64,000 nt of DNA from Sphingobium arseniciresistens. GTDB lineage: Bacteria; Pseudomonadota; Alphaproteobacteria; Sphingomonadales; Sphingomonadaceae. The DNA is taken from contig JARFNK010000021.1 in NCBI GenBank assembly GCA_029167225.1, positions 31,662 through 95,661 on the forward strand. Reading direction: 5' to 3'. The position numbers and the translations under genes are program-made. Position 1 is the first letter of the stretch. Each line of letters starts with the position of its first letter. Positions 4,863 to 29,882 of the stretch are shown one piece after another. The notes below the pieces were generated by a model that was given only the letters and a program-made list of their open reading frames with translations, did not search any database and was not told the DNA's origin.

Positions 4863-5439
4863 GGCGCTGCGCGGCCTCTGGCCGCGGCTGTGCCGGTTGC
4901 CGGGCAAGGCGGCGGTCGCGCTGGGCGCGGCGGGCATGGGCGAGCCCGCCCGGCCGGAGCGGCTATGGCGCGCGTTCGCGATCGTGTTGCCGGTCGCGCT
5001 GTTCGCGGCACTGGTGCTGCCGAAGATTACGCTGGTGATGAGCCCTTCGATCGATGCCTGGGCCGTTCGTGAAGCGCCGGGGCCGATCGTCAGGGGCGAC
5101 TATGTGAAGTTCACGCTGCGGCATCCGATCGCAGGGCCGAATCCGGTCAGCGTGACCAAGCACGCGCTGTGTATGCCCGGCGATCATCTCGACCATATCG
5201 AGACCCCATCGGTCTCGGCGCCGCACGCGTGGGATGGGCGCTATTTCTGCAACGGCGAGCTGCTCGGTGTGAGCCTGCCTTACGGGCTGCATGGGCTCCG
5301 GCTCCAGCATCTTCAGTGGAGCGGCATGATCCCGCCGGGGATGGTCTATGTCGGCTCGCATCACCCGCGCGGTTTCGACAGCCGCTATTTCGGGCTGGTT
5401 CCGATCAGCCGCCTCACGCGGATGGAGAAGCTGCTGTGA
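4834..5439 (+). CDS. S26 family signal peptidase of conjugation (TraF/TrhF type)
   Basis: This is a membrane-anchored serine protease like TraF of RP4 and TrhF of IncHI plasmids, which process pilin or another transfer substrate. The 201-residue product has one N-terminal membrane segment (AFAIVLPVALFAALVLP). It then shows the S26 blocks in order: MSPSIDAW with the candidate nucleophile serine, VTKHALCMPGD with the candidate general-base lysine, and VGSHHPRGFDSRYFGLVP. The start at 4834 lies inside the end of trbC with GGAGG 7 nt upstream. The frame is open further upstream, but those residues do not resemble the family. The stop overlaps the next GTG start. Confidence 0.82.
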   Translation: MLRLFWVLVEALRGLWPRLCRLPGKAAVALGAAGMGEPARPERLWRAFAIVLPVALFAALVLPKITLVMSPSIDAWAVREAPGPIVRGDYVKFTLRHPIAGPNPVSVTKHALCMPGDHLDHIETPSVSAPHAWDGRYFCNGELLGVSLPYGLHGLRLQHLQWSGMIPPGMVYVGSHHPRGFDSRYFGLVPISRLTRMEKLL

Positions 5440-6332: not shown

Positions 6333-6379
6333 AGGTGGTTATCACCATGCGATGCCCTGTGATCGAGCAGGCTGCCGGA

Positions 6380-6778
6380 TCAGGCGGGGACACGGGCCTT
6401 TTCACCGTTTCCTTGCACAAGCTTAACGGCGTTTTCGTCGAAGCTCACGAAGGTTTCGCCCCCGAGCCATCGCCCTTCATGCGCGATGACCCCATCGGCG
6501 AAGTCGCCCCCGGCGTCGAGAAATGCGAGCCCGGCCTCCACTGCGGCCACGTCAGCTTCGGTATTGCCGGCGGCGATCAAGGTGCGAATGGCTGCAGCGA
6601 TCCGCTCATGGCTTTCCTTATAGCCTTTCAACATCACCCAGACGAACTCGCACAAGGCAGGAAGCGTCAGCGCGACCAAGTCAGCTTCCTCCAACACTCT
6701 CTTTGCGATGGGGGTCTGGATTTTGTCATCTTCGACGAGGGCTCGAAGAATAATATTGGCGTCTGCCGTGATCTTCAC
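6380..6778 (-). CDS. PIN-domain toxin, VapC-like
   Basis: PIN-domain ribonuclease toxin of a type II toxin-antitoxin pair. The 132-residue product shows the acidic tetrad in order: ITADANIILRAL near the N-terminus, ALCEFVWVM, DFADGVIAHEG and FVSFDENAVKL. It starts with GTG inside the stop of the antitoxin gene (GTGA), so the two are co-translated. The pair lies antisense within the conjugation operon, between traF and the thioredoxin-like gene. It may help stabilise the element in its host (inference). Confidence 0.85.
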   Translation of the reverse strand: MKITADANIILRALVEDDKIQTPIAKRVLEEADLVALTLPALCEFVWVMLKGYKESHERIAAAIRTLIAAGNTEADVAAVEAGLAFLDAGGDFADGVIAHEGRWLGGETFVSFDENAVKLVQGNGEKARVPA

Positions 6779-7026
6779 AGTTCGCCGGCCCAGCCCTTCG
6801 CAGTAATCTCATTGATTTCCTCGATCGATAGCGACTTGCGGCCCTCCCGCTTCAGCATGCCGAACGCATCGGAAATTTTGCCAGTAGGCCGAACTGCCCG
6901 AATCCTGACTTCACCGCCCGGCAGCTTGTCGATGCTGATCTTCTCCCCAGGGTGGACGCCAAGATGCCTCAGCAATTCCTTCCGCAGCGTGATCTGCCCC
7001 TTGGAGGTAATGGTGATCGCGTTCAT
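6775..7026 (-). CDS. AbrB/MazE-type antitoxin
   Basis: SpoVT/AbrB-fold DNA-binding antitoxin partnered with the PIN toxin. The 83-residue product opens with the family signature NAITITSKGQITLRKELL, followed by HPGEKISIDKL. The C-terminal half (RKSLSIEEINEITAKGW) is the expected toxin-binding tail. I chose ATG 7026 because the AbrB domain begins there; ATG 7050 would add eight residues. A palindrome at 7054-7069 just upstream is a likely autoregulatory operator. Confidence 0.85.
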   Translation of the reverse strand: MNAITITSKGQITLRKELLRHLGVHPGEKISIDKLPGGEVRIRAVRPTGKISDAFGMLKREGRKSLSIEEINEITAKGWAGEL

Positions 7027-7053
7027 CCGCCGAGTCCTTTCATCGGCCATTGT

Positions 7054-7069
7054 AAGGAAGAACTTCCTT
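7054..7069. promoter_or_regulatory. Inverted repeat, candidate antitoxin operator
   Basis: AAGGAAG-AA-CTTCCTT has two perfect 7-bp arms with a 2-bp centre. It sits 27 bp before the preferred antitoxin start and 20 bp before the divergent thioredoxin-like gene. AbrB-type antitoxins usually repress their own promoter through such palindromes. Here the site could also affect the transfer gene on the other strand. Confidence 0.5.
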
Positions 7070-7089
7070 CCCTTCAAGGAAAGGACGGC

Positions 7090-7677
7090 ATGATGCGCTC
7101 GCTTGCGATTTTGCTCGGTCTTCCCGGAATAGCGATCGTGATCGGCTCGGCGGCCGCCGCGCAGACCGTCACGCGCGAGCAGGCGATGCGCGCCGCGATC
7201 CATCCCGTCAGCGATAGCCAGACAATGCAGGCATGGCTGTCGCGTGTTCCCGTGACCCGAGATTTCCCGGACGATTTCGGGGCAACCCTGGGCGGGCAGG
7301 GCTCAGCCTTCGTGGTCGAGATGACGACGAGTCCAGGCTGCGTTCCCTGCGGCGATCTCTGGCGAAAGCTGACGGATCTTGGACGGCGCTACGGCTGGCA
7401 GGTGCGTACAATCAGCGCGCAGGAGGCGATGATCCGCTCAGGGAGGCTTGGCCTTCCGTGGGTCGGGCATCCGGTCGCCTGGGCCCGACCGATCAATGAC
7501 GCCTCGCGGATCGTCCCGATCGCGATCGGGACAGACCATGCGCCCAATCTGGCGCGCAATCTCTACCTCGCGGCGAAAATGCTGACCGGGGTTCGGCCGG
7601 CGGTGGGCGTGCGGGCCATGTCGAAGTTCACTGGCATCGTTGGCGTTCCCAGTCGCTCCCCGGCAGGGAGACGCTGA
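7090..7677 (+). CDS. Thioredoxin-like conjugal transfer protein (TrbB-like)
   Basis: Exported thioredoxin-like protein of 195 residues, probably filling the role of F TrbB, a periplasmic disulfide isomerase of the transfer apparatus. It has a signal peptide ending SAAAA, then FVVEMTTSPGCVPCGDLW with a CVPC motif and GWQVRTISAQEA. The C-terminal half is less typical. ATG 7090 follows AAGGAAAGGA; ATG 7093 is also possible. Upstream tra genes overlap one another, but this one is separated from traF by the antisense toxin-antitoxin pair. TrbB homology is inferred from the CXXC motif and position between traF and traH. Confidence 0.65.
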   Translation: MMRSLAILLGLPGIAIVIGSAAAAQTVTREQAMRAAIHPVSDSQTMQAWLSRVPVTRDFPDDFGATLGGQGSAFVVEMTTSPGCVPCGDLWRKLTDLGRRYGWQVRTISAQEAMIRSGRLGLPWVGHPVAWARPINDASRIVPIAIGTDHAPNLARNLYLAAKMLTGVRPAVGVRAMSKFTGIVGVPSRSPAGRR

Positions 7678-7704
7678 ATGTCCTCTTCGCCTTCTCCCCT
7701 CGCC

Positions 7705-8874
7705 TCAATCATGAAGCGCGAGAAGTTCACGGCTCGCCTGCGCGAGCGGCACTGCTTCGATGGCGTGTCCCATCGGGAAGCGCTCGACGCCGGGATAGAT
7801 GACGATCCTGCGGGCAGGTTGAAGGTCTTCAACCGCATGGTGGAATCCGCGCTCGACTTTGGGGGCGAGGCTGCGCTTGATTTCGATGGCCCAGAGAGCG
7901 CCATGCGGCAGGGTAAGCACGAGATCGATTTCCGCACCCGCCAGGGTCCTATAGAAGTTCGCGACGGTCCCTTCGGGCGCGGCGGCGATCAAGCTTTCGA
8001 TCGCGAAGCCTTCCCAGCTCGCACCCGCCACGGGGTGCCCCAGCACCGCCTCCTGGTCGCCCAGGTTGAGCAGCGCATGGACGAGGCCGCTGTCGCGGAC
8101 ATAGATGCGGGGCGACTTCGTCAGGCGTTTGGCGGCATTGCTGTGCCAAGGCTCAAGCCTGCGAACCAGCAGCAGATCGACGAGGAGGTCGAGGTAGCTG
8201 GCGACGGTCTTGGAATCCACGCCAAGACTGCGCGCGAATTCCGAGGCGTTGAGCAGCCCGGACTGATGGTGTGCCAGCATCGTCCAAAAGCGTCGCAACG
8301 TCTCCGCTGCAATACGCGGGCCGAACATGGGAATGTCGCGCTCAAGATAGGTGCGGATGAAGTCGCGCCGCCAGCGAAGGCTGATGCGATCGCTTCGCGC
8401 GAGATAGCTGTCGGGAAACCCACCCCGGATCCACAGACCCGGCAAATCCTGCTCCGGCACCTCAAGCGCATCGAGCGGGCCCATTTCGAGATAGCTGATG
8501 CGGCCCGCGAGGCTTTCTCCAGATTGCGCCATGAGGTCGATCGATGCCGATCCGAGCAGCAGGAACCGCCCTGCCCTGAGCCCCTTGCGTCGGCCGCGAT
8601 CGATCAGTCCACGGAGGATCTGGAAGAGGCCGGGCAAGCGATGGACCTCGTCGAGAACGACCAGCTTGTCTTGGTGGCTCGTGAGATACTGCTCGGCGTC
8701 GGCGATCTTCGCACGATCGGCTTCGGATTCCAGGTCGAGATACACAGATGGCCGCGTCGCAGCGATTTCCTGAGCCAGGGTGGTCTTGCCAACCTGTCGC
8801 GGCCCGAGCAGGGCGACAGCAGGCGTCTCGTCAAGCCTTGCGGCCAGTTCCGTCCTGATACGTCGTTTAATCAT
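7705..8874 (-). CDS. AAA+ ATPase with DUF4143 domain
   Basis: Stand-alone ATPase of the ATP-binding/DUF4143 family, 389 residues. The N-terminal AAA domain has a Walker A motif (LLGPRQVGKTT), a Walker B-like LVVLDEVHRLP and LLLGSASIDLM. The C-terminal DUF4143 region contains GASWEGFAIESLI and AEIDLVLTLPHGALWAIEIKRS, a nuclease-like E/D...EIK pattern. The biological role of the family is not settled. ATG 8874 fits the family's usual MIKRR start; a GTG at 8922 would add 16 residues. It is antisense inside the transfer operon, separating the thioredoxin-like gene from traH, and is best read as inserted cargo. Confidence 0.85.
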   Translation of the reverse strand: MIKRRIRTELAARLDETPAVALLGPRQVGKTTLAQEIAATRPSVYLDLESEADRAKIADAEQYLTSHQDKLVVLDEVHRLPGLFQILRGLIDRGRRKGLRAGRFLLLGSASIDLMAQSGESLAGRISYLEMGPLDALEVPEQDLPGLWIRGGFPDSYLARSDRISLRWRRDFIRTYLERDIPMFGPRIAAETLRRFWTMLAHHQSGLLNASEFARSLGVDSKTVASYLDLLVDLLLVRRLEPWHSNAAKRLTKSPRIYVRDSGLVHALLNLGDQEAVLGHPVAGASWEGFAIESLIAAAPEGTVANFYRTLAGAEIDLVLTLPHGALWAIEIKRSLAPKVERGFHHAVEDLQPARRIVIYPGVERFPMGHAIEAVPLAQASRELLALHD

Positions 8875-8882
8875 CCTCGTAT

Positions 8883-8920
8883 ATTCGGATCGCAACTCCG
8901 AATTTACAAGGATAATTATC
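8883..8920. promoter_or_regulatory. Two palindromes upstream of the DUF4143 gene
   Basis: ATTCGGA (8883-8889) and TCCGAAT (8897-8903) form a perfect 7-bp inverted repeat with a 7-bp spacer. GATAATTATC (8911-8920) is a perfect 10-bp palindrome. Both lie in an AT-rich stretch just upstream of the preferred ATPase start, in otherwise GC-rich DNA. This suggests a dedicated promoter/operator for the inserted gene. Confidence 0.4.
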
Positions 8921-8999
8921 ACACCCCGTCATTCTTTCCGTGGCAAGCTCTGCTGGCGGGCGAGCTGTCGCGACCATTTCTGCGAAGAGGATTCCCGCC

Positions 9000-10418
9000 A
9001 TGGTTCGACCCCGCCTGATTACCGCGTTGTGCGCCCTGCTCGCCTGCTGGTGCGCTGCTGCGCCGGCCCACGCCCAGAGCTGGGCGGAAAGCTGGTTCGA
9101 CAATGTGACCTATACCTCGCCTGGCAGTTTCGAGGATCAGACCCGGGGCTACGTCACGGCAGGCGGTATGTCCGGACGGGTCGACGTCCATAACGACTAT
9201 CTGATGTCGATCAGCCTTCCCAAGGTGCGCGCCGGCTGCGGCGGCATCGATATGTTTTTAGGCGGCATGAGTTTCCTCGACCCCGATTATCTCGTCCAGA
9301 AACTGGAGAGCATCCTTCAGGCGGCGCCCGCCGTGGCCTTTCAATATCTCCTCGAAACCTTGGACGAGAAGATGGGGAACATCATCTCGAAGATGGAAGC
9401 CGCCACCAATTTCCTGAACAGTATCCAGGTCAACGACTGCCGACTCGCCAACCGCATGGTCCAGATCGCCAAGGGCGACGACAATATGGGCGGGATCATC
9501 GAGGAGATGACGGGGTACAAGTCGGTCAAGGAGGGCTTTGCCAAGAGCTATCAACAAAGCCGCGAGAAGATCCAGGCGAACAACAACAACCCGACCGAGG
9601 ATCTGAAGGATGTGCTCGCCAACTGCCCGGCGGAAGTCACGGACATCTTCCGTACCGGGTCGCTGCTATCCCACGCTGCCTCGCGCGTCGGCGCCGGCGA
9701 CTGGGCGAGCGTGATGCGCGCCCGCGTGGGCGACGTCTATATGCGCTGGGATCCGGCCGATAAGGTTCCGTTGTTCACCGCCATCCCACAATGCCCCGCG
9801 CAGGACACCGAAAGCTCGCAGGATTTCCTGACCGGGCGCGTCCAGCGTCGATCGCTGAACATCCCGCCATCGGCGGCGGATTGCTCGCAGGATGGCGGCG
9901 GCCGCGGCGCGCTTATCCTTGCGCGTGAGCGCATGGAATCGATCGCCACCAAGATCAGGACGCGCGCCGCGCTCAGCACCGAGGAGCGCCAGTTCGTCGC
10001 CAACGTCCGGACGCTGCCGATCTACCGGATGCTCGAATGGGGCGTGCGGCAGGGCGTGGTCGACTCGGTTATCTCCGATACCGACGAGTTGGTCGCGCTG
10101 ACGCTTGCCTATCAGATGCTCAACGACCTCACCCGCACGATCGATTTCACGGTGAGTAATGCCGAGCGGGGCGCGACCACGGCCGGTGCCGCCGATGGCA
10201 ACAACGCCAATGTCTGCCAGACACGCATCCTCTCCAAGGGCATCGAGCAGCTGCGGGATCTGCGCGACGAGGTGCTGCGCCAGCGTGCGCAGATGCGGCA
10301 GAGCTATATGGCAGCGCTCTCGGCGGCGAACCTGTCGGCGAACTATGCGGGCCTCATCCGCGACCGCGACCGCGATGCTCGCGACGCCGCCGGCGCGGCG
10401 GCCGCGCGCAACCAGTAA
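9000..10418 (+). CDS. traH: Conjugal transfer protein TraH
   Basis: TraH is a periplasmic/outer-membrane-associated F-type protein required for pilus assembly. The 472-residue product has a signal peptide (ALCALLACWCAAAPAHA), then the characteristic opening SWFDNVTYTSPGSFEDQTRGY and SLPKVRAGCGGIDMFLGGMSF, and a C-terminal helical region ending in a run of arginines and alanines. The start at 9000 has AGAGGA about 8 nt upstream; the open frame extends further but without family resemblance. It lies 14 nt before traG. Confidence 0.92.
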   Translation: MVRPRLITALCALLACWCAAAPAHAQSWAESWFDNVTYTSPGSFEDQTRGYVTAGGMSGRVDVHNDYLMSISLPKVRAGCGGIDMFLGGMSFLDPDYLVQKLESILQAAPAVAFQYLLETLDEKMGNIISKMEAATNFLNSIQVNDCRLANRMVQIAKGDDNMGGIIEEMTGYKSVKEGFAKSYQQSREKIQANNNNPTEDLKDVLANCPAEVTDIFRTGSLLSHAASRVGAGDWASVMRARVGDVYMRWDPADKVPLFTAIPQCPAQDTESSQDFLTGRVQRRSLNIPPSAADCSQDGGGRGALILARERMESIATKIRTRAALSTEERQFVANVRTLPIYRMLEWGVRQGVVDSVISDTDELVALTLAYQMLNDLTRTIDFTVSNAERGATTAGAADGNNANVCQTRILSKGIEQLRDLRDEVLRQRAQMRQSYMAALSAANLSANYAGLIRDRDRDARDAAGAAAARNQ

Positions 10419-10432
10419 CGGGAGGCAAGTCC

Positions 10433-13400
10433 ATGCGCCGCATCGCCAAACTGCTTGCCCTCCTCCCCGCGCTGCTCGCCGCTACGCCGGCGCTGGCCGT
10501 CGATACGAGTTTCCACACCTATGACGGTTTCGCCGAGACGGTGGAGGCGTTTCGGCTCGTCTCGATGATCTTCGCTGATCCCCGATATGAGACGCTGGTG
10601 CTGATCGTCGCGACGGTCGGGATCGGCCTTGGGGCGATAGTGGCGAGCGTGCGCGGCTCGGGAATGGGGCTGGTCGCATTCGGGTTCCAAATGCTGTTCG
10701 GCGTCGGGCTGTTCGTGGGGCTGATCGCCACCACGGGCACGGTCCATGTCTATGACCGAGTCCGCAACGCCTATCAGCCAGTCGGCGGCGTCCCCAATCT
10801 GCTTGTGCTGGTGGCGGGTGTGACCAACATGATCGAGCGGGCGCTGGTCGAGACCATCGACGACAATACCATTGACCCCGATGCGAAGATCGAGTTCGGC
10901 GCGGGTGGCCACAGCTTCGATCTCTTCCTCAACGCGGTTTCCCCGCGCGGCCCCATGACCGACACCTTCCTCGACGCGACCATCAAGGACTATGTCCGGC
11001 AATGTTATCCGGTGGCGCGCGTTTCAGCTGCCTATGGGATCGATGACGACAAGCTGTTCCGCACGGCAACGGACCTGCCGGGCGCCTTCGCGGCGATGGC
11101 CGGACCCGCCACTTTCTCGACCGTCTATACCGAGAGCGACAAGGGCGGCACGACGATGAGCTGCACCGATGCCTGGACGCATATCTCGGATCGCCTGTCC
11201 GACCCTGCCTTGTTCGACGGCTATACGCGGCAGATCTGCGCCCGCACCGGCTTCAACGTCGACGACGCGCAACAGATGAACCGATGCCGCCAGCAGTTGG
11301 GCGAGATGGGTCAGATGATGCTCGGTCAGCCGCTGTCCACTCAGGCGCTCCTGACCCACATCTTACTCGGCAATACGGTTGGTGACGTCCTGTTCGAGGA
11401 TTCGCCGGCCAGCGCGGCGCGCGTCATGGCCAACCGGGCAGTGATCTCGAACGGTCTTGCGACCCTGTCGGTCGCCAATGAATGGATGCCAACGATCCGG
11501 GCGACGGTGTTCGGGATCATGCTATTCATGGTGCCTGTCGCGCTGCTGTTCATCCTGACGCCGATCAATCTCCGGGTCGCGAGCTTCGCGCTCGGCCTGT
11601 TCGTGTTCGTAGCTCTCTGGGGCGTTATTGACGCGGGCATCTATCAGCTCACGCTGGGCCGTGCCCATGCCGCGCTCGAGGAATTGCGATCGAACGCGCT
11701 CGCCGCCAATGCGTGGTTGCTAGCACCCTCGGCGGCGATGAAGGCGCTGGCGATCTTCGGCAGCTTCCGCACAGCGGCAGCCGGCCTGGCAGGCGCCTTC
11801 GTGTTCACCGTGTTCCGCTTCAGCGGCAATGTCTTCACCTCTTTCACCTCGGGCGCGCTTGGTGTCGCCGGCCAGGGCACGGCGGCGGCCGCTCCGATGG
11901 CGACGACCGAGGGACAAGCCTCGGCACTCGAAGCCCAGGCCTCCGCGCTCGGCACGCGGGCGCGGGCAGCCGCATCCTCCAGCTTCGGGGATTTCGGCGA
12001 GAGATCGACATTTGGGGCCAACCGAGCGTTCGGCCAGGCAGATCACATCCTGGGCGAGCGTCCAGGCACATCCGGCGGCACCGCTTTCGCTCTCGGCGGC
12101 CTTCAGGGCGCCGAGGAACTGGGAAGGCTCGCCCCCGCCCTCAACGGGCGCGATCTGGCGGATCCACAGGTCGCGCGGGCAGTCCGGGCGAATGCTGCGA
12201 CGACAGCTATTCACCAGTTCGCCGAAAAGGATGCGCTTCGCACGCTCGGCACCACCTATTTCGGGGAAGGTCAGACCGGTGAAAAGGCGTTCGCCGCTTT
12301 CGCGCAGAATCTCGTCCAGTGGCGCGCCTTCGGCGATCAACGGGCTTACGGGATGATGATGCAGGCGGCGACCCGGCACTTCGAGCGTGGCGGCTATTCC
12401 GCTAAGGATGCTGAACTCAAGGCGTCCGGGATCATTGCCGAGGCACAGTCCGATCCCACCTTCGCGAAGCTGATCGCCAATACCTTCGACCAGGAGCGCT
12501 TGCTCGAGAACGATCTCACCGCGGCGCAGACCCAGGTCGGCGCGATGGAAGGCCGACGCGATTATGCCGGCGACAATGTCGCCGGGGTGGAGCGGTCCAA
12601 TGTCGCGACCGAACAGGCTTGGCGTTCTGGCAGTAACCAGGGCCAACGCGAGGCCGCCGCGATGCTTGGCCTCCCCGTGGACGAGACATCCCGCCGCATC
12701 GGTTTCATCAACGCGCTCTCCGGCGAAGCGCGAAGCACCGCGATCACCCAGCTCGCGCGCGCGACCGGGCGGAACGAGGGTCAGGTCGAGCGCGCGCTGG
12801 AGCGCTATAATGCCGCGGTTAGTGTCGGCACGGCTGATGGTGCGACCGCTGAGGCGGCGCGCGAGGGAACCAGCGTCTATGGCCGCACGCTAGAGGCGGC
12901 TGGCTATGATTTCGCGGAACGCTCGGGCAAGCTCGATGCGCAGCGCGAAGTCGGTACCAGCGGCACGCGCGATGCGGCCCGGATCGGCGAGCAGCGGCGG
13001 CAATCGGAGAATTTCGGCTTTGCCGAAGGCGCCGCTGCGGCCGGTGTCTCGACGCGCGAGGCAGCGCGTCTCGACAGCTTCATCCAGGCGCTGAGCCGCA
13101 CGGCCGGCAATCAGGTGGACATGGCCGAAGGCGGCGCGGAAGGCATCGCCGATCGCGCGCGGAACGAGCGTCTGACCCGCATCGTCGACAATGAGCGTCT
13201 GACCCGAATGCAGGGGCTGCTCGCCGAAAACGGCGTTACCCTGACCAAGCGACAGATCGCCATGGACCAGAATGGTGATCTCAGCCTCAACCTGACGCCC
13301 CAGACCGCCGCTGCGATGTATAAGGCTGGTCTCATCAACGAGAGCCAGCTCGGCGCAATCGCCAATGGCGGGCGGGCACGGTTCAGCTTCGCTGATAATG

Positions 13401-14158
13401 ACCTGCTGGTGTCGAGCGGGACCGACTTCAGCCGTTCAGCGCGCAACGATACCAGCACGCGGTTCGAGGCGGGTAAGCAGGCCGGCCCCGATACGATCGA
13501 GCATTTCATGGGCGGTGGTGAGGAAGGCCGTGCCGCGATGGAGAATTGGCTGCGCGGTGGCTTCGAGATGGACCGCAAAGGGAATTGGCGGCTCAAGCCT
13601 CAAGTTGCCGACACGCTCCAGCGCGACGTGCAGGCGATCATGACGCAGACTGGTTGGACCCGATCTATTTCGCGGAGCGCAATGCATCAGGTATCACAAG
13701 GGACGATAGTCGGTGGCCAGATCGAAGGCGGGGCCTCGCGCGGAGGACGCGGTTCTGGAGCGAAGGACGGGAATTCGACGTCTTCGGGGTATAGTGGGCG
13801 AGCTTCTGTGCAGGTCGGCGCAAGCAGTAGCGATACGGGCACAGGCTCGATCGACGCAATGGCAACGATGGACATCGTAAACTATGACGTGCGCGAAGCT
13901 ATCGCCAATGCGGAACGTGCATCCACAAAATCTGCGGCTCCTGAGAAGGCCTTCTCCCTCGAATTGAGCCGACAAATCCTCGGCTCTCAAGGTCTAAGAA
14001 ACCGATATCTAACCCAATCCTCATCTGGCCGAGGCGTAGGAGATTGGTCTGCTCCGCTAACAGGTATAGAGCAGCGCAGCATTCTCGATACGGGCCGCTT
14101 CTCTGATGATTTGGATCATAGCTCTCGAGACGGCGACGCTGAATTTAAGAAAAGATAG
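10433..14158 (+). CDS. traG: Mating-pair stabilisation and exclusion protein TraG
   Basis: TraG is an inner-membrane protein. Its N-terminal region works in pilus assembly. Its periplasmic C-terminal region acts in mating-pair stabilisation and, in F and SXT, recognises the recipient's exclusion protein. The product has 1241 residues: a signal-like N-terminus, membrane segments at about 40-110, a TraG N-domain, further hydrophobic segments at about 355-470, then a long polar, Ala/Arg/Glu-rich soluble region. GGGAGG precedes the ATG. The last 170 codons or so (from about 13660) are visibly less GC-rich than the rest, suggesting a separately evolving tail. It is the last transfer gene in the window. 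Confidence 0.9.
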   Translation: MRRIAKLLALLPALLAATPALAVDTSFHTYDGFAETVEAFRLVSMIFADPRYETLVLIVATVGIGLGAIVASVRGSGMGLVAFGFQMLFGVGLFVGLIATTGTVHVYDRVRNAYQPVGGVPNLLVLVAGVTNMIERALVETIDDNTIDPDAKIEFGAGGHSFDLFLNAVSPRGPMTDTFLDATIKDYVRQCYPVARVSAAYGIDDDKLFRTATDLPGAFAAMAGPATFSTVYTESDKGGTTMSCTDAWTHISDRLSDPALFDGYTRQICARTGFNVDDAQQMNRCRQQLGEMGQMMLGQPLSTQALLTHILLGNTVGDVLFEDSPASAARVMANRAVISNGLATLSVANEWMPTIRATVFGIMLFMVPVALLFILTPINLRVASFALGLFVFVALWGVIDAGIYQLTLGRAHAALEELRSNALAANAWLLAPSAAMKALAIFGSFRTAAAGLAGAFVFTVFRFSGNVFTSFTSGALGVAGQGTAAAAPMATTEGQASALEAQASALGTRARAAASSSFGDFGERSTFGANRAFGQADHILGERPGTSGGTAFALGGLQGAEELGRLAPALNGRDLADPQVARAVRANAATTAIHQFAEKDALRTLGTTYFGEGQTGEKAFAAFAQNLVQWRAFGDQRAYGMMMQAATRHFERGGYSAKDAELKASGIIAEAQSDPTFAKLIANTFDQERLLENDLTAAQTQVGAMEGRRDYAGDNVAGVERSNVATEQAWRSGSNQGQREAAAMLGLPVDETSRRIGFINALSGEARSTAITQLARATGRNEGQVERALERYNAAVSVGTADGATAEAAREGTSVYGRTLEAAGYDFAERSGKLDAQREVGTSGTRDAARIGEQRRQSENFGFAEGAAAAGVSTREAARLDSFIQALSRTAGNQVDMAEGGAEGIADRARNERLTRIVDNERLTRMQGLLAENGVTLTKRQIAMDQNGDLSLNLTPQTAAAMYKAGLINESQLGAIANGGRARFSFADNDLLVSSGTDFSRSARNDTSTRFEAGKQAGPDTIEHFMGGGEEGRAAMENWLRGGFEMDRKGNWRLKPQVADTLQRDVQAIMTQTGWTRSISRSAMHQVSQGTIVGGQIEGGASRGGRGSGAKDGNSTSSGYSGRASVQVGASSSDTGTGSIDAMATMDIVNYDVREAIANAERASTKSAAPEKAFSLELSRQILGSQGLRNRYLTQSSSGRGVGDWSAPLTGIEQRSILDTGRFSDDLDHSSRDGDAEFKKR

Positions 14159-19041: not shown

Positions 19042-19956
19042 ATGCGCACCGAACTCGACCATCTCCCAGCGGCAAAGCAGCGCGAGCTGGACCGCGTCAT
19101 CCAAATCCTGTTCGAGGAGTTCGAGGACGCCCATGGCAAGCCGAACGGCCAGCGCAAGCTGGGCCGCATTCTCAAGGTGATCCTCTACGGTTCCTACGCG
19201 CGTGGCGGTTGGGTCGATGAACCGCATACGGCGAAGGGATATCAATCCGATTTCGATCTGCTGGTGATCGTCAACCAGAAGGAACTGACGGACCGGGTGG
19301 ATTATTGGGAGCGAGCCGAGGAACGGCTCACCCGCGAACGCGCGATCACGAGGTCGCTCAAGACGCCCGTCAACTTCATCGTCCACAGCCTCCAGGAGGT
19401 GAATGACGGGCTGGCGCATGGCCGATATTTCTTCATGGATGTCGCCCGCGACGGCATCGCGCTCTATCAGGCGGACGAAGAGGACCTGCTCGCCCCCAAG
19501 CCCAAGACGCCGCAGGAGGCGTTCGACATGGCGCAGGAATATTATGACTACTGGTTCTCGCTGGCGGTCGATTCCCAAAAGGTATTCCATTTCTGCCTTT
19601 CACAGAAATCCTACCGTCACGCCGCGTTCAATTTACATCAAGCGTGCGAGCAACTCTATCACTGTGTCTTGCTCGTCAGAACCTTCTACACGCCCCACGT
19701 TCACAATCTGAACTTTCTGCGGACGCAGGCCGAGCGGCTTTCGATCCGGCTGGTCTCGGCCTGGCCACGCGAGAGCAAGAAGGACCGCGCCCGGTTCGAG
19801 AAGCTCAAGGACGCCTATGTGAAGGCTCGCTATTCCAAGCATTACCGCATCACCGAGCAGGAGCTTCGGTGGCTCGGAGAGCGCGTCGAGGAACTGGGCA
19901 CGATCGTCAACGACATCTGCACCGCGAGACTGGCCGAGTTGAAGGCGACGCTCTGA
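19042..19956 (+). CDS. Fused nucleotidyltransferase-HEPN protein
   Basis: Single 304-residue protein joining the two halves of a minimal-nucleotidyltransferase/HEPN toxin-antitoxin pair. The N-terminal MNT domain has GSYARGG (Gly50-Ser51) and SDFDLLVIV (Asp70, Asp72), a GS...DXD signature. The C-terminal half from about 165 is helical HEPN, with HQACEQLYHCVLLV and ARYSKHYRI holding the Arg and His of the HEPN motif. In split systems the MNT enzyme modifies and silences the HEPN RNase. Fusion suggests self-regulation or a different role. It follows vapC by one base. Confidence 0.83.
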   Translation: MRTELDHLPAAKQRELDRVIQILFEEFEDAHGKPNGQRKLGRILKVILYGSYARGGWVDEPHTAKGYQSDFDLLVIVNQKELTDRVDYWERAEERLTRERAITRSLKTPVNFIVHSLQEVNDGLAHGRYFFMDVARDGIALYQADEEDLLAPKPKTPQEAFDMAQEYYDYWFSLAVDSQKVFHFCLSQKSYRHAAFNLHQACEQLYHCVLLVRTFYTPHVHNLNFLRTQAERLSIRLVSAWPRESKKDRARFEKLKDAYVKARYSKHYRITEQELRWLGERVEELGTIVNDICTARLAELKATL

Positions 19957-23276: not shown

Positions 23277-25595
23277 TTAGCGCGCCGCAGCCGCCGAAGA
23301 AGCCTCCTGCATTTGCCGCAGCTCCCGCCAGCGCCGATATTGCTCGGCCTTGGCAGGATCGGGATCTTCATAGCCTTGCAGCCAGAACCGGAACCAGTCC
23401 ACCGAACCGCCCTGCGACGCCATCCTAACCGTAGGATTGGTTAATAGATGCTCGTCCGTATTGAGCAATATCAGATCGACCGGCTTATTCTGGAAGCGCA
23501 ACAAGGCATAAGGTTCCCACATGAACATCAGGCTTAGCTTCCCTTCGCCGACCACTTGAACCGCAGCGCTAATTCTGTCCGTATTGAATGTGGGCGAGTT
23601 CTTCAGCCAAGTCTGGAGACCGACACCGAAGGGCTTCGCGCCGATCATTGCGTCCGCTTCGGCGGAAATGCCACTGTCGTTCAACAGGCCCGCCGACATG
23701 ATGTATTGCCAGTAGCCTTCGTTCACGCCGTCTGTGATTGACGCCGCTTTGAAGCGCACTGAACTCTTTGTGAGAGCTTCCATCACGTAATAACAGGTGC
23801 GACTAAAGCCGATAATGCCGATCTCTTCGGGGTCTATCATACCCTTTGCTGCGAGGGCCTTGACTGCGGACTCATATGCGTCGACCTGACAGGCTGCTTC
23901 CCTCGGCGTCACAGTCTCAGCGTCACGACAGCGAGTTTCCAGAACTATGATCCCACTCGCCGCTAGGACTTGAGCAGCATAACCTGTGGTGTAGCCGCCG
24001 CTCGGCCGGAACAATTCCGAGGAGAAGCCGTGTGTCTGGATAACCAGCGGATAGCGTTTCCCAGGACGATAATCTTGAGGCAGAAAGAGACCGCCGCTCT
24101 GCTGTCGACCTGCACTGTCGGTCCACTCAAAGACCTGAGGCTTACTGAAGGTTATATCTGCAATTTCCGGGTTTGGGTCCCAAACGACGCGCGATACCCC
24201 GTTCGCCGTGTTGGTCACGAGCAGGCGTGGTGGCTGAATGGCGGATTGATCCACGCTGACGCTAAAGCTGGCCATCGTATCACGGCGAGGTTCAGTCGCT
24301 GTCATTGCCCACGCGCCTCCGGCTTTTGAAACGTAGTGACGGTTTCTTACCTCGGCGGTCCGAATATCTTTCGCAGTGATTGTAATAGACGATCCAGCAG
24401 AATCGTCGAACTTGATGGCAGAGATAAATTCGGCTCCCGGAACCATCGAGCCTCCTTTACTATAGGTCTTCGCTAGTGGCTCGACGCACCGAGTTGCGCG
24501 AGAAGAGATCAAGAAAACCCCAATGCAGGGCGGTGCCGCGCTCGTTCCTAAATCGGCGTTGGGTTGGAATACGCCAGGTAGCAGGACCGCACTACCATCG
24601 GCCGACCACATTGGCGACGCATCAGGCCACCATCCGGCAGATCGGCCGGTGGGCGTGTTAAGTGGAAACAATGTTCCATTCGTCCGCGTGTCGATCAGCG
24701 CATATCTGGACGTCAGCGAGTGACCGAATAGCGAGTCGACATTTTGGCGTCCCGCTGGGATCGGATTGGATCGCGCGCTGGTAGGCGATGGGTATCGCTC
24801 GCGCCAATCATCGGGAACGACAGATAGCGGCAGCGCCGTCAAAATCCATCGTCCATCAGGAGACATCGCCAAGGCACGGACGCCTTCGTCGAAGACGACC
24901 AATGGCTTCCCGGAAGCCGGGTCTAAGACCGCCCGCGCCGTTCCGTTGGTGGCAGCCCAAATCGTATTTCGGTCGATGCTATGGTCAAGGGATTCAGGGA
25001 TGACAACATCCGTGAGTGAACGCCCGGTCAGCACTTCCGAGGGCTGATCGGATGCGCCTCGTCCACCATCCCGAACCGCTCTGACCGCGTAGGCGAAGTG
25101 AGCGCGATCGGCGACCGTGAAGCCGGTAACATCCTGACCGTCGTCCGAAAGTGACGACAGCGTTTTGTTGGCTACATCGGCCAGCATGAGCCGCTTCACA
25201 CCGGCCGTCGTCTTCTGCAAGAAGACGATGGCTTGAGAATTAGCGGTCCATTTTATACCGTCAATGCTCGGCCCCGCTTTCGACGTCGCAAGTTTAATCG
25301 TCCACAGGGAGGATGGTGATAAGCGATTCGCGCTTGCTCCACTCACCAACGCCCGCAACGCATCCGCGGAATAGATACGCAGTTCACTTTCGATCCTGCT
25401 TTCTTTCAACAGTCCGCGCCTCACGTTGACCGCGAGCAGCTTTCCGTCCGGCGAATACGAGATTGCCGCGTTATCCAACCAGAAGTCAGCAAACTGAACT
25501 TCATCCCTGAGAGTATAAGGGCGCTTTGCGCTGGCCGGCAGCGAGAGGCCACCAATCAGCAATACAGAAGAAATAGCAAGCAGCCGCGTTCTCAT
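23277..25595 (-). CDS. Lasso-peptide isopeptidase, AtxE2-like (S9 family)
   Basis: Prolyl-oligopeptidase-fold serine hydrolase resembling AtxE2 of Asticcacaulis, which hydrolyses the isopeptide bond of lasso peptides. The product has 772 residues from ATG 25595 (GAGG 7 nt upstream): a signal peptide ending LPASA, a beta-propeller N-half, and a hydrolase C-half. The triad candidates are Ser598 (IGFSRTCYYVMEAL), Glu694 (LMFMWEPYALL) and His716 (NTDEHLLTNP). A catalytic Glu instead of Asp is a feature of AtxE2. It lies downstream of a TonB receptor and FecIR genes, as in lasso clusters, but no precursor, B or C gene is present. The gene is AT-richer than its neighbours, suggesting transfer. Confidence 0.85.
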   Translation of the reverse strand: MRTRLLAISSVLLIGGLSLPASAKRPYTLRDEVQFADFWLDNAAISYSPDGKLLAVNVRRGLLKESRIESELRIYSADALRALVSGASANRLSPSSLWTIKLATSKAGPSIDGIKWTANSQAIVFLQKTTAGVKRLMLADVANKTLSSLSDDGQDVTGFTVADRAHFAYAVRAVRDGGRGASDQPSEVLTGRSLTDVVIPESLDHSIDRNTIWAATNGTARAVLDPASGKPLVVFDEGVRALAMSPDGRWILTALPLSVVPDDWRERYPSPTSARSNPIPAGRQNVDSLFGHSLTSRYALIDTRTNGTLFPLNTPTGRSAGWWPDASPMWSADGSAVLLPGVFQPNADLGTSAAPPCIGVFLISSRATRCVEPLAKTYSKGGSMVPGAEFISAIKFDDSAGSSITITAKDIRTAEVRNRHYVSKAGGAWAMTATEPRRDTMASFSVSVDQSAIQPPRLLVTNTANGVSRVVWDPNPEIADITFSKPQVFEWTDSAGRQQSGGLFLPQDYRPGKRYPLVIQTHGFSSELFRPSGGYTTGYAAQVLAASGIIVLETRCRDAETVTPREAACQVDAYESAVKALAAKGMIDPEEIGIIGFSRTCYYVMEALTKSSVRFKAASITDGVNEGYWQYIMSAGLLNDSGISAEADAMIGAKPFGVGLQTWLKNSPTFNTDRISAAVQVVGEGKLSLMFMWEPYALLRFQNKPVDLILLNTDEHLLTNPTVRMASQGGSVDWFRFWLQGYEDPDPAKAEQYRRWRELRQMQEASSAAAAR

Positions 25596-25639
25596 GGATC
25601 GCCTCGTCAAGATGATAAATCTGTTGAAATTCAAAACGT

Positions 25640-25678
25640 ATCATCGGGGCTGGAAAATAATTCCGCGCCCCCGATGAT
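25640..25678 (-). terminator. Stem-loop between TonB receptor and isopeptidase genes
   Basis: ATCATCGGGG (25640-25649) and CCCCGATGAT (25669-25678) form a perfect 10-bp stem with a 19-nt loop that contains a smaller GGAA/TTCC hairpin. It sits in the gap between two minus-strand genes. The following tract (ACGTTTTG) is only weakly T-rich, so it may be a partial terminator or mRNA-stabilising hairpin that lowers isopeptidase expression relative to the receptor. Confidence 0.5.
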
Positions 25679-25689
25679 AGTGGATTACG

Positions 25690-28290
25690 CTACCAGCGTT
25701 TCGCTATGCTGAAGCTCACCAGTCTTCCAATGGCGGAATAATTGGTAGAATCGTAGTTGACGTAGAATGCCTGCGAGTTCTTGAGATAGGGTGGCCGTTG
25801 ATTGAGGAGATTTTCAACCGAAAGCGACAGGTCGATGTTGCTGAAGATACCGTGGCCGCTCTTGAGGCTGTAAACCGCAGCGAGATCGACCGTGGTCATC
25901 GAATCGCCTTTGACCGGCGGCGTTAGCGTCGGGTCCGTGACGCCTCCGAGATAGTTGAGGAAGGCCGAGAGGACCAACCCGCCACGGTCCCAAGACAGGC
26001 TGGACCGGGACCGAAAATGAGGCGGGTCGAAGGTCGTGCCGGCGAGAGTCACCGGCGCCGATGTCGGCGTAGTTCGCTGGCTGCTTGAGATATAGCTGGC
26101 CTGCTCTCCCAGGGTGATATGGCCGTCGCCCACGTCGATGCGGTAGCTCAGATTGCCATCGACGCCCTCGACGCTTTGCGAGGAAACATTCAGATAGAGA
26201 CCATTGATAATCGCAGCGACGTTCGCCGGATCGTATGGCTTCCCTGTTATGTTCATGATGCCGGCCGGCGCCATGTCGATGAAGCTGTTTTGTAGATCGA
26301 CGGAAGGGTTGCGAAGGATCAGATTCGCCAGGCTGGGATTGTTGTAAAGATCGCCCAATAGTCGGGCTTGTATGACGCGATTGGTGTATTTCACGTTGAA
26401 ATAGCTGACCTCGACGCGCAGGCCGGGAACGCTTCTCGGATGAATGCTCAACGTGGCGGTCCAGGTGGTCGCGCGCTCTGGCTTCAGATTCTTGTTACCG
26501 CCGAGCGCATAAAGGACCGTCGCGCTACTCGGAAAGCCGGTGCCGTATTGGGCAGCGGGATAAAGATAGACTGTCGTGGTCGAGAACTCTTGCGCCAAGG
26601 TCGGCGCCTTGAAGGATTTTCCCCAAGACCCCTTAAAATCGAAGTCCTCGGTCGGCGAGTAGATCGCACCGATCTTCGGGGTCGCGATGCCGCCGATGTC
26701 GTTATAATCTTCGTATCGGACCGCACCCGTGAACGACAGGCTGCGAACGAAGGGGATATTCTGATCGCTCCCGATGACCGGAAGATAGAGTTCGCCGAAG
26801 CCGTAATAGCTGTGCCGTTTGCCGAAAGTCCGAATCTGCCTCGTGATATTGTTCTGATCGAAGCTGTTCTCGCGATAGCCCCCGCCGAGCGCCACGCGCG
26901 ACTGCCCGCCTGGTAGCTGAAATAACGGTCCTTCCGCGTTCAGCTCGACGGATTTGACCGAATTGCAATAGCAGGTGACGCCTCCGGCGAGAAAGGCACC
27001 CGTCGCGATTGCGTATGCCTTGGTATCGCTGTCCGTGTCGTCGCGTCCGTAAAGGCCGCTGATGGAGAGGCTCCAGCTTTGTGGGAGATGAAATTCGATC
27101 TTCGGCGCTACGGTATAGCTCTCCGACGATAGAGAGGTCCGGCCGATTGCCGTCGTCGAAGTGACCGAATTTGATAGGCGTTTGCTGTAAAGACCGTCGA
27201 TCGAGAATGTCGCAAAGGAACCGATGTCCTGATGCCCGCTCACGACAAGCGCGTGGGTCTTGTTCGATCCGAGCAGCGTGTAGGGTTGTCGAAGATAGTC
27301 CGTATAGTCTCGCTGATCCGCATAGATCGGGGTCGAGCGGGAGAAGTTGTAAGTGGCGATAAACCCGCCATCGGACCACCGTTTGCCAGCAACGATGCCG
27401 TATTGCTGCTGAAAGTCGCCCCCATCGGTCGCTTGACCAAGACGTGCGGATGTCGCCACCCCGTCATAGTCCGGTTTCAGAATAACATTGGCGACACCGC
27501 CGACTGCATCAGAGCCGTAGATCGCCGAGGCGCCATCCGCGACGATTTCAATTCTGTCCAGCGCGTCGATCGGGATCGTTGAGATGTCGATCGCTTGAGT
27601 AAAGGCATCGTAGGCCAACCGCTTTCCGTTGAGAAGGGTGAGCGTCGCGTCGGGGCCGAGACCGCGAAGGTTGAGAGCAGAACCACCAGTGAGATTCTGA
27701 TCGCTCACGCTGCCCTGCGTGCCGCTGGCTACTCCCGGATTTTGTCCGCCGGAGAAGTTTTGGGGGATGCTGCGGATGACTTGGCCGAGGTTGGTCTGCC
27801 CTGCTTCGCGAATGCTTCGCTGGCTCAGTTCGATTACCGGCGATGTCGGCGGCGATCCCTTAATCCGGGAACCTGTGACGACGATGTCGGAGTTGTCGCT
27901 GCGACTCTTTTCAGCATCGGTTAAGTCGGCATCTTCGATAGGGACCACTGTGTAGGTCTGCGCCCCCGTGGCCTGTGCGTGAAGTCCTGTGCCCTTGAGA
28001 AGGTGCCGTAATCCCTCCTCAATCGAGAAATTGCCTTTCACGGCGTGCGTGCGCTTCCCGGAGGCGTCACGGGCCGAAATGAGGAGCTGAATATCGGCCT
28101 GCCGCGCAAAGGACGCGACGCCGGATGCCGCATCCTGCGCCTGAACGTCGAAAGTCTTGGTCTGTGCATAGGCCGGCGAGGCGACTGCCAGCGTGACAAC
28201 CGCTACCGACGCCATGAGTCCGTGACGAGCGAAATCCCGATATCCAACCACAATCGTCCCCCTTGCGAGATCGGCATCAAATGCCTTCAA
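25690..28290 (-). CDS. TonB-dependent receptor with STN signalling domain
   Basis: Outer-membrane receptor of 866 residues. Order: signal peptide (ending SPAYA), STN domain (KTFDVQAQDAASGVASFA ... GLRHLLKGTGLHA) that contacts FecR, TonB box/plug (SDNSDIVVTGSRI; DRIEIVADGASAIYGSDAVG), then a 22-strand-type barrel ending in a C-terminal tryptophan (SIAKRW). The STN domain marks it as a FecA-like transducer: ligand binding should signal through FecR to the sigma factor. Its neighbour is a lasso-peptide isopeptidase, so a lasso peptide is the likely ligand (inference from established lasso clusters). Confidence 0.92.
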   Translation of the reverse strand: MKAFDADLARGTIVVGYRDFARHGLMASVAVVTLAVASPAYAQTKTFDVQAQDAASGVASFARQADIQLLISARDASGKRTHAVKGNFSIEEGLRHLLKGTGLHAQATGAQTYTVVPIEDADLTDAEKSRSDNSDIVVTGSRIKGSPPTSPVIELSQRSIREAGQTNLGQVIRSIPQNFSGGQNPGVASGTQGSVSDQNLTGGSALNLRGLGPDATLTLLNGKRLAYDAFTQAIDISTIPIDALDRIEIVADGASAIYGSDAVGGVANVILKPDYDGVATSARLGQATDGGDFQQQYGIVAGKRWSDGGFIATYNFSRSTPIYADQRDYTDYLRQPYTLLGSNKTHALVVSGHQDIGSFATFSIDGLYSKRLSNSVTSTTAIGRTSLSSESYTVAPKIEFHLPQSWSLSISGLYGRDDTDSDTKAYAIATGAFLAGGVTCYCNSVKSVELNAEGPLFQLPGGQSRVALGGGYRENSFDQNNITRQIRTFGKRHSYYGFGELYLPVIGSDQNIPFVRSLSFTGAVRYEDYNDIGGIATPKIGAIYSPTEDFDFKGSWGKSFKAPTLAQEFSTTTVYLYPAAQYGTGFPSSATVLYALGGNKNLKPERATTWTATLSIHPRSVPGLRVEVSYFNVKYTNRVIQARLLGDLYNNPSLANLILRNPSVDLQNSFIDMAPAGIMNITGKPYDPANVAAIINGLYLNVSSQSVEGVDGNLSYRIDVGDGHITLGEQASYISSSQRTTPTSAPVTLAGTTFDPPHFRSRSSLSWDRGGLVLSAFLNYLGGVTDPTLTPPVKGDSMTTVDLAAVYSLKSGHGIFSNIDLSLSVENLLNQRPPYLKNSQAFYVNYDSTNYSAIGRLVSFSIAKRW

Positions 28291-28338
28291 TTCGCAAGAG
28301 TCCCGGCAACGACGCTTCCTTAGCGGACGCGGAAAAAA

Positions 28339-29310
28339 TCAGGATGATGGTTGGCCGATTACTATGTTGCCGTTCTCCGAAGTCTCCACTGGCGCTCCGA
28401 GGCTCCGGTTGACGGCCGTCGCAAATCCGCCGGGATCATCCGTGCGGAATATCCCGTAGAAGCGTTCGCCGGCCAGGCGGGGGTCAATGATCGTCAGCTT
28501 CTGCTGGTTGTAGCGATTGAACTCGGCTGCTGCTTGAGCAAGCGTCTCTCCAGCCAGGTCAATCTTGCCGCCCCGCCATGCGAGCGCGCGATCGACCTCG
28601 GACGGCTTCGCCTCATTGTGCGTGACGGCTGCATTATCTGCGACGAATGCTCGCTCGCCAGCGCCGAGACGGATTTTGGCGCCTTCGGCACCATCCGCCC
28701 AGGCTTCAACGATACCCTCGGTCACGAGGACATCGGCGCCATCATCGCGGCGGCGCACCGAGAAGGCGGTTCCCACCGCTTCAACCCGGATGCGTCCAGC
28801 TTCTACGATGAACGGCCGGGCACGGTCCTTCGCGACCTGAAACCAGACCTCGCCCTGGTCGATGCGGACGTGCCGCACGCTCTTTTCAAGTCGGACCCGG
28901 ACATCGCTGGCGGTGTTGATCGTCGCGCTGGAGCCGTCTGCCAGCGGCACCCGGCGGATTTCCCCAACCGTCGTGCGAAATTCGGTGCCCGCACCCCACC
29001 AATAGACGCCGAACGCGAGCGAAGCGGCCAGCGCCGATCCGGTTCCGGCTGCTACGCCGAGGACGCGACGTCGGGTCAGCAGCCCGGGCGGAGCCGGCTC
29101 CTCTTCGTCGGCCGCGGAGTGGTCGTCGCCAAGACGATCGAGCATCGCCCAAGCCGCTTCGGCCTGAAGAAGCGCGCCCTGCCGACGGGGATCGGCCGAT
29201 ACCCAGGTATCCAGTTCGGCCTTGAGCTGGGGCGTTCGTCCTTCGCGGTCGATACGCATCAGCCAGAAGACGGCCTCCTGTTCGATTTCGGCAGCGGTCT
29301 GGCGCGTCAT
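28339..29310 (-). CDS. fecR: FecR-family anti-sigma/signal transducer
   Basis: Inner-membrane regulator of 323 residues. A cytoplasmic DUF4880-type helical domain (EQEAVFWLMRIDREG ... WVSADPRRQGALLQAEAAW) precedes a membrane segment (VLGVAAGTGSALAASLAFGV). The periplasmic FecR domain follows (EIRRVPLADGSSATINTAS), and an STN-like C-terminus (GETLAQAAAEFNRYNQQKL) can receive the receptor's STN domain. It starts in an ATGA overlap with the sigma gene. It would hold or activate the sigma factor according to receptor occupancy. Confidence 0.92.
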   Translation of the reverse strand: MTRQTAAEIEQEAVFWLMRIDREGRTPQLKAELDTWVSADPRRQGALLQAEAAWAMLDRLGDDHSAADEEEPAPPGLLTRRRVLGVAAGTGSALAASLAFGVYWWGAGTEFRTTVGEIRRVPLADGSSATINTASDVRVRLEKSVRHVRIDQGEVWFQVAKDRARPFIVEAGRIRVEAVGTAFSVRRRDDGADVLVTEGIVEAWADGAEGAKIRLGAGERAFVADNAAVTHNEAKPSEVDRALAWRGGKIDLAGETLAQAAAEFNRYNQQKLTIIDPRLAGERFYGIFRTDDPGGFATAVNRSLGAPVETSENGNIVIGQPSS

Positions 29311-29882
29311 GCTGCACCTCCCTGCGGCCAGCCGCTTTCCAGCGCCGTGACGCTCGCCTGTTCGGATTCACGGAGGGCTGCGAGGACAAGGCGCACGCCC
29401 TTGGCCGCGTCGTTCTCCACCGTCGATTCCGTAACGCCGAGGCGACGCGCGATTTCCTTCTGCGAGATGCCCTCGATCTTCCGCATCTCGAAGATGAGTC
29501 GGCAACGCTCCGGCAGGCCCGCAACGATCTGACGAACGCGGTCGACCTCTATGCGTCCGCCGACCTGCCGCTCCGGCGAAGGGGTTTCATCGAAGGGAGC
29601 CAGTGCCTCGATGTCGGCAACCGCGTCGATACGGACGATACGCTGCCGCCGCATCTGCGCGGTCAGAAGATTACGCGCGATCGAGAAGAAATAGGCGTCA
29701 GGACGATCGACCGCCGCCACGTCATCCAGCGACGCGAGGCGGCAATAGGTTTCCTGAATCACGTCGTCTATGTCTTCCTGCTGCATTTTCGACCGGCTCA
29801 GCCAGGCACGCACCTTCCCTTCGTGGGGCATGACACGATCGGCCACCCACGCCACGATCCTCCGGCGGCGTTGCTCTTCCAT
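29307..29882 (-). CDS. fecI: FecI-like ECF sigma factor
   Basis: RNA polymerase sigma factor of 191 residues. Region 2 is around DDVIQETYCRLASL and PDAYFFSIARNLL; region 4 is around LPERCRLIFEMRKIEGISQKEIARRLGVTESTVENDA. It is the first gene of the sigma-FecR-receptor-isopeptidase set and overlaps fecR by 4 nt. It presumably directs transcription of the receptor and isopeptidase genes once the ligand is sensed. Confidence 0.92.
   Translation of the reverse strand: MEEQRRRRIVAWVADRVMPHEGKVRAWLSRSKMQQEDIDDVIQETYCRLASLDDVAAVDRPDAYFFSIARNLLTAQMRRQRIVRIDAVADIEALAPFDETPSPERQVGGRIEVDRVRQIVAGLPERCRLIFEMRKIEGISQKEIARRLGVTESTVENDAAKGVRLVLAALRESEQASVTALESGWPQGGAA

Follow-up and report, generated by a model that had tools for sequence, protein, structure and literature searches.

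A probable stand-alone module for sensing, importing and opening lasso peptides, with a candidate second family of lasso isopeptidases, in Sphingobium arseniciresistens

In a 64-kb stretch of Sphingobium arseniciresistens DNA (hereafter the window; positions 31662-95661 of contig C35, from a 6.6 Mb assembly of 120 contigs with 6 % estimated contamination) four minus-strand genes encode an extracytoplasmic function (ECF) sigma factor, a FecR-type regulator, a TonB-dependent receptor bearing an STN domain and a hydrolase of lasso isopeptidase type. Here we propose, with somewhat more confidence than doubt, that they form a mobile stand-alone FecI/FecR/TonB-receptor/isopeptidase module which senses, imports and opens external lasso peptides. 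A fuller picture, of a conjugation-linked "lasso piracy" module joined to a second isopeptidase family that lies below the annotation cut-off and has moved its catalytic acid from after strand 7 (Glu610 of AtxE2) to after strand 6 (Asp622), is advanced more tentatively.

In the mechanism we propose, a lasso peptide outside the cell would bind the TonB-dependent receptor, whose STN domain would signal through FecR to the ECF sigma factor, and the sigma factor would turn on the receptor and hydrolase genes. The peptide would enter by TonB-dependent import, and the hydrolase would linearise the imported threaded peptide at its isopeptide bond by means of Ser598 and His716, with Asp622 as the probable acid. 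Since each of the five lasso clusters of this genome has a receptor and an isopeptidase of its own, the likeliest producer of the peptide is another strain.

The module, its hydrolase and its receptor

The module consists of the following features.
29307..29882, minus strand: ECF sigma factor (FecI-like), 191 amino acids (aa); Sigma70_r2 and Sigma70_r4_2 (Pfam), sigma70-ECF at 85 bits (NCBIfam)
28339..29310, minus strand: FecR-type regulator, 323 aa; PF04773 at 73.2 bits, PF16220 (DUF4880) at 26.4 bits
25690..28290, minus strand: STN-bearing TonB-dependent receptor, open reading frame (ORF) of 866 aa; STN at 42.9 bits, Plug and barrel (Pfam)
25639..25679, minus strand: stable hairpin in the gap that separates receptor and hydrolase genes, from RNA folding of 25600-25700
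23277..25595, minus strand: S9-fold hydrolase assigned to the second lasso isopeptidase family, 772 aa; Ser598, His716, putative acid Asp622

All four genes had been recognised in a first-pass annotation of the window, and Pfam and NCBIfam uphold both their positions and their identities. Each has an open reading frame, the catalytic Ser and His are retained in the hydrolase, and the adjacency of ECF sigma factor, FecR and STN receptor is that of a FecI/FecR/STN-receptor system (Pfam, gene order). As listed, the ORFs leave gaps of 55 and 48 bp and the sigma and FecR genes overlap by 4 bp; of the earlier figures (56, 48 and 0 bp) the second alone was exact. The hydrolase ORF as listed begins at a TTG, reaches 25634 and is 785 aa long. 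Judged by eye, an ATG at 25595 (772 aa) is the likelier start, as is a GTG at 28251 for the receptor (853 aa), and the residue numbering Ser598/Glu694/His716 fits the 772-aa protein and not the TTG ORF. With these starts the gaps are 94 and 87 bp, and with either set the space is too small for a usual precursor, which has at least 40 residues. The 101-nt stretch 25600-25700 folds at -34 kcal/mol (z -3.83; 0/200 shuffles equally stable), and its hairpin, which lies just past the receptor stop codon and ahead of the hydrolase gene, could be a processing or attenuation element.

The first-pass annotation had named comparison of a predicted structure with AtxE2 as a check on the hydrolase, and an active site incompatible with AtxE2 as grounds for giving the idea up. 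An AlphaFold2 model (pLDDT 90.7, pTM 0.91) was obtained from a 66-row alignment, two rows of which are canonical isopeptidases and which also served the profile search. In a Foldseek search of PDB the top 8 rows are all SpI-IsoP and AtxE2 chains, with other S9 peptidases lower. Taken together, model, Foldseek and profile search describe an S9-type fold, propeller plus alpha/beta hydrolase, closest to the solved lasso isopeptidases.

For the active site we compared a sample of the second family: the best 80 of 99 candidates, from 78 loci, gave 77 hydrolases, and the fractions below hold for that sample. Hydrolase ORFs shorter than 560 aa or scoring 150 bits or less were excluded; L117, L150, L156 and L169 have no row, and L114, L153 and L165 have two each. 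Genus rows read off the wrong strand, or passed over, do not enter the comparisons. We take the catalytic triad of AtxE2 to be Ser527/His638/Glu610; S527A is named in the title of PDB entry 5txe. Ser598 and His716 of the window hydrolase align with Ser527 and His638 and are invariant in the family (77/77 each). The AtxE2-numbered triad is nevertheless incomplete, since the Glu610 column holds Ser688. Glu694, annotated earlier as the third member, was rejected as the counterpart of Glu610: it stands six residues beyond the Glu610 column, where a helix follows strand 7 (678-684), and behind a Trp conserved in 74/77.

Position 622 is the first residue past the strand 617-621 and is acidic in 73/77 members (D 59, E 14), but in only one of eight canonical rows (seven plus AtxE2). 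Some alpha/beta hydrolases have their catalytic acid after strand 6, which makes Asp622 the candidate acid; it probably replaces the catalytic Glu of AtxE2. The window hydrolase thus has the Ser598, His716 and acid at 622 of the second family (S, H, D). Glu694 is a possible catalytic acid but is less conserved (acidic in 64/77) than position 622. An acid occupies the Glu610 column in two of the four members that lack one at 622, against 6/73 of the others (Fisher p 0.051), a difference that is no more than suggestive. The active site is therefore not incompatible with that of AtxE2 as such: Ser and His are kept, and the acid has probably been relocated.

By sequence, the best PDB match of the hydrolase is AtxE2 (E 5.4e-27) and its best NCBIfam match is NF033523 (lasso_peptidase) at 175 bits, against a curated cut-off of 400; in the whole-genome search with that model its best stretch scored 139 bits. 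All nine second-family members that were scanned score 125-175 bits, so the NF033523 model will not name the family. The closest relatives come from Oleiagrimonas citrea (42 %) and Acidobacteria (36-42 %). An origin within the genus was rejected, as no close orthologue was found beyond the window itself in 94 genus genomes (best 36 %, partial length) or in 397 family genomes (best near-full-length 32 %, partial at most 36 %).

Phylogeny agrees with this placement. In a first hydrolase tree the seven canonical isopeptidases form one side of a branch with the second family opposite, and the window hydrolase clades with hydrolases from lasso clusters, in a 13-row set (support 99) with six rows from biosynthetic gene clusters (BGCs). 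In a 28-row tree it lies in a 7-row set with support 98/96, and a clade of window plus the seven canonical rows is rejected (approximately unbiased test, p 9.9e-73; group chosen after the first hydrolase tree had been seen). The hydrolase and receptor trees both bear long-branch warnings. Thus the description of an AtxE2-like isopeptidase stands for the fold, the Ser and the His, and fails for the family model and the canonical clade; on sequence grounds the hydrolase belongs to a second lasso isopeptidase family found in Acidobacteria and Proteobacteria.

Gene neighbourhoods tie this family to lasso peptides. Within 9 kb of 41 of the 77 members there is a match to cyclase or B2; 21 are stand-alone (no such match despite enough flank), and for 15 the contig stops too soon for a decision. 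Local B2 and cyclase profiles score low in Acidobacteria, and ten candidates from six loci were thus scanned with Pfam, which found PF13471 in 6/6 and PF00733 in 4/4. Locus L113 carries a PqqD-type B1 (Pfam), and L154 two short precursor-like peptides with Thr at -2 and a core of the form Gly1...Glu7 or Asp9, as in lasso precursors. Because B2, cyclase, B1 and precursor-like peptides adjoin its members, the second family is, by predicted gene content, lasso-associated.

The receptor points the same way. Its best matches in its own genome are the receptors on contigs C12 (717 bits), C76 (697), C35 (633), C40 (613) and C32 (606); the lasso-module receptor on C1 matches in two pieces (177 and 161 bits), and the next receptor after these six scores 90 bits. 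For these comparisons, the tree included, the receptor sequence was read from 28248 and so misses the first residue of the GTG form. In a 44-row tree its neighbours are canonical lasso receptors of sphingomonads (support 96 for an 11-row set and 100 for a 12-row set), so that it is, as judged from its sequence, of the sphingomonad lasso type. The two phylogenies differ, the hydrolase grouping with Oleiagrimonas and Acidobacteria, and the module may have been assembled from two sources. The window is not alone in such mixing, because several other second-family loci also have receptors among the canonical ones (four and five in the 11-row and 12-row sets).

Base composition adds little. The guanine-plus-cytosine (GC) content of the hydrolase gene is 0.568 against 0.627 for the window, so the claim that it is AT-richer holds against the window. 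It is not distinctive, since the receptor gene has 0.579 and, of the genome's six further isopeptidase genes, five are similarly AT-rich (0.545-0.592; the C1 gene has 0.697), and GC does not single out the hydrolase gene. AT-richness was therefore rejected as a mark of its foreign origin.

Lasso biosynthesis and stand-alone modules

Whole-genome searches with PF13471 (B2), PF00733 (cyclase) and NF033522 (benenodin-type precursor), in which B1/PqqD was not separately searched, gave no match in the window, as the first-pass annotation had said of precursor, B2 and cyclase; by precursor, B and C genes the window is not a lasso BGC. At the thresholds of those searches no B2 or cyclase fragment adjoins the module. 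That annotation had also held that a complete cluster elsewhere in the genome would refute a scavenging system, and five such clusters exist. There are five B2 genes, adjoined by cyclase matches in 5/5 cases, and six precursor matches over cut-off (NF033522) spread over all five clusters; one complete cluster lies on C35 itself, about 37 kb from the module. Besides the window hydrolase the genome has six nearly full-length NF033523 matches, five over cut-off and that on C12 at 391 bits. The notion of a genome without lasso biosynthesis is thus false. What survives is a weaker form, a module that would sense, import and cleave lasso peptides whose genes do not adjoin it, because the genome's own clusters are self-equipped, natural isopeptidases are reported to be cluster-specific and stand-alone modules recur, some in genomes with no B2 over cut-off.

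Receptor and FecR matches lie near 16 of the 21 stand-alone second-family loci. The label BGC or none requires at least 10 changes on the hydrolase tree, so stand-alone forms arose repeatedly. The 21 loci belong to 20 genomes (completeness unstated), six of which have no B2 over cut-off: Oleiagrimonas citrea, Rudaea cellulosilytica, Rudaea sp. 3F27F6, Sphingobium sp. C100, a gammaproteobacterial metagenome-assembled genome and Frateuria sp. Soil773 (sub-cut-off match only).

Canonical-type stand-alone modules occur in the genus too. Among 101 canonical genus isopeptidases over cut-off, 14 have no B2 within 10 kb; inspected with local profiles, these 14 loci, L033 among them, divide as follows.
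L188, L191, L196: cut by a contig end, cyclase match present
L197: cyclase and B2 about 10 kb off
L190: 55-aa cyclase-like fragment
L199: shortened isopeptidase match
L187, L189, L192, L193, L194, L195, L198, L033 (8): neither B2 nor cyclase match, with just about 1.7 and 2.2 kb of sequence past the gene in L192 and L033

The cyclase match at the contig end in L196 makes the zero B2 count of its genome, G056, unsafe. L033 (3550-9977 on contig C76 of the same genome as the window) is a second sigma-FecR-receptor-isopeptidase module, of canonical type at 712 bits; no B2 or cyclase match falls on its 12-kb contig, whose end lies 2.2 kb past the module. The L190 fragment (10892-11059) stands by a canonical isopeptidase module in a genome, G051, without B2 matches, possibly a case in which biosynthesis was lost and the uptake and cleavage genes were kept.

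The contig and its probable mobility

F-type conjugation genes TraU, TrbC, TraH and TraG_N lie on the plus strand at window positions 2-14155 (Pfam, 4/5 proteins scanned). The contig, which has a complete lasso cluster in addition to the stand-alone module, is thus likely to be a conjugative plasmid or element. A stretch of 22,316 bp around the module matches a contig (L109) of Novosphingobium naphthalenivorans NBRC 102051 at 100 % identity, and that genome also has 8,530 bp of the lasso cluster on C35 at 100 %. Because the other three B2 matches of that genome have scores unlike those of the window's genome, we infer different strains with one shared element; the module itself is presumably mobile. 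Among 72,556 plasmid records the hydrolase has a match in 32, all below 60 % identity (best 31 % among the 15 of 32 matches listed), and 24.5 kb of the window matched nine records, each over at most 3 %. Genes resembling VirD4/TraG coupling proteins by eye lie near two other stand-alone modules (L068 11475-13517; L070 2-928), which suggests mobile carriage there also.

Window positions 19042-19956 (plus strand) encode a HEPN protein (PF05168 at 29.6 bits, above its cut-off) that probably also has a nucleotidyltransferase domain (PF18765 at 23.8 bits, below its cut-off). Paralogues stand near lasso clusters, for example at L031 16288-17226, L035 9859-11735, L069 407-1348 and L071 3481-4476. Of the 150 genus matches listed, 31 fall within 7 kb of isopeptidase loci (28/111 loci), where about one is expected if placement is uniform in 5 Mb genomes, and ten more among the matches listed lie 27.8-31.0 kb away. 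The gene is possibly cluster-linked or part of a shared mobile element.

Competing readings and known systems

According to the accessible text of PMC9266682, natural isopeptidases act only on the threaded lasso peptide of their own cluster: AtxE1 and AtxE2 show no cross-activity, and SpI-IsoP, tried on 24 lasso peptides, cleaved its own alone. Several points nevertheless weigh against a module for foreign lasso peptides. Its lasso substrate, its FecIRA-type signalling, the foreign source of the peptide and a benefit to the cell, as food, cargo, signal or protection, are each a step beyond gene content. The hydrolase is far from the tested enzymes (it is 25-35 % identical to the genome's six further isopeptidases, in alignments of 292-317 residues), and the Glu610 column is acidic in just 8/77 family members. 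For its nearest relative, from Oleiagrimonas (42 %), 22 kb of sequence gave no match to a receptor, B2 or cyclase gene, and 14 of the 20 genomes with stand-alone loci have B2 over cut-off elsewhere. Specificity is not absolute, a benenodin/astexin-3 chimera being opened by both BenE and AtxE2 (PMC9266682, accessible text), and a role in trans is possible given the genome's own five clusters with their six precursor matches.

That role in trans would have the module take up and open at least one of the lasso peptides made by its own genome, with the product of the C35 cluster as the likeliest candidate; it is the alternative that fares best, and we consider it unlikely. The five complete clusters, one of them some 37 kb off, and the presence of stretches of both C35 loci at 100 % in Novosphingobium naphthalenivorans speak for it; every cluster, however, has its own receptor and isopeptidase (5/5), and the narrow specificity reported for AtxE1, AtxE2 and SpI-IsoP, the one doubly cleaved chimera apart, argues against a shared opener.

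It is quite improbable that the module is a remnant, a lasso cluster minus its A, B and C genes that is now drifting or kept by chance. Loss seems to occur in the genus, as at L190, where a full isopeptidase module stands with its cyclase-like fragment, and L199, where the isopeptidase match is shortened. However the four genes are open with the catalytic Ser and His kept, no B2 or cyclase fragment lies by the module at the search thresholds, and its nearest relative is likewise stand-alone. We also give little credence to another substrate, such as a different lariat or macrocyclic peptide or a siderophore, handled with a borrowed lasso-type receptor: the hydrolase lacks the AtxE2 Glu, falls under the NF033523 cut-off and has a weak PF00756 esterase match (27 bits, cut-off 22), and a relative in G038 (L070) adjoins a PHP-type gene (by eye) with no lasso genes matched, but the same altered active site occurs in members within lasso clusters, the receptor groups with lasso receptors and the closest solved folds are lasso isopeptidases.

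If the proposed import and opening of foreign lasso peptides is right, the module may let a cell exploit or disarm lasso peptides of other cells. Modules for sensing, uptake and cleavage only would part the use of lasso peptides from their production, offering a genetic handle on that use. Recognising the second family would add enzymes to those now available and provide a marker by which acidobacterial lasso clusters can be found, and its relocated catalytic acid is a clear structural prediction.

The role of isopeptidase-containing lasso clusters is called enigmatic in the accessible text of PMC9266682, where concentration control and cargo release are the ideas offered. As far as their accessible text goes, a 2026 review places isopeptidase genes beside lasso clusters mainly in alphaproteobacteria (PMC13352647), and a Sphingomonas lasso cluster has been linked to phenanthrene use (2024, PMC11006600). 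With AtxE2 and SpI-IsoP (NF033523; PDB 5txc, 5txe, 5jrk, 5jrl) the window hydrolase shares the predicted propeller and alpha/beta hydrolase fold, the Ser and His, a C-terminal DWFRFWL...QY.RWR..R region and sigma factor, FecR and TonB receptor as operon partners. It differs in its elbow (G-F-S-R-T, not G-L-S-D-G), in its 175 of 400 bits, in the Ser at the Glu610 column, in its clade and in having no adjacent A, B2 or C gene found by its module. It is closer to the isopeptidase-like genes that lie within acidobacterial and proteobacterial lasso clusters, with which it shares clade, elbow type, W-[ED] motif and the acid past strand 6, and from which it differs in lacking an adjoining B2 or cyclase gene and in its sphingomonad lasso-type receptor.

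The metanodin cluster, whose origin its authors place in Steroidobacteraceae, may include a second-family member; according to the accessible text of that paper (PMC12670498) a related cluster, from a gammaproteobacterium, contains an isopeptidase gene, so single members of the family may already be labelled isopeptidases. Open-access lasso-peptide literature, so far as its accessible text extends, yielded no description of a stand-alone module or a second isopeptidase family. Within that literature the parts are of known kinds, and the stand-alone arrangement and the second family with its moved acid are undescribed variants.

FecIRA-type signalling works through an ECF sigma factor, FecR and an STN receptor, and in siderophore piracy cells use the compounds of others. 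The module has the same three signalling genes and, by analogy, would likewise draw on compounds made by others; it differs from these systems in carrying a hydrolase of lasso isopeptidase type.

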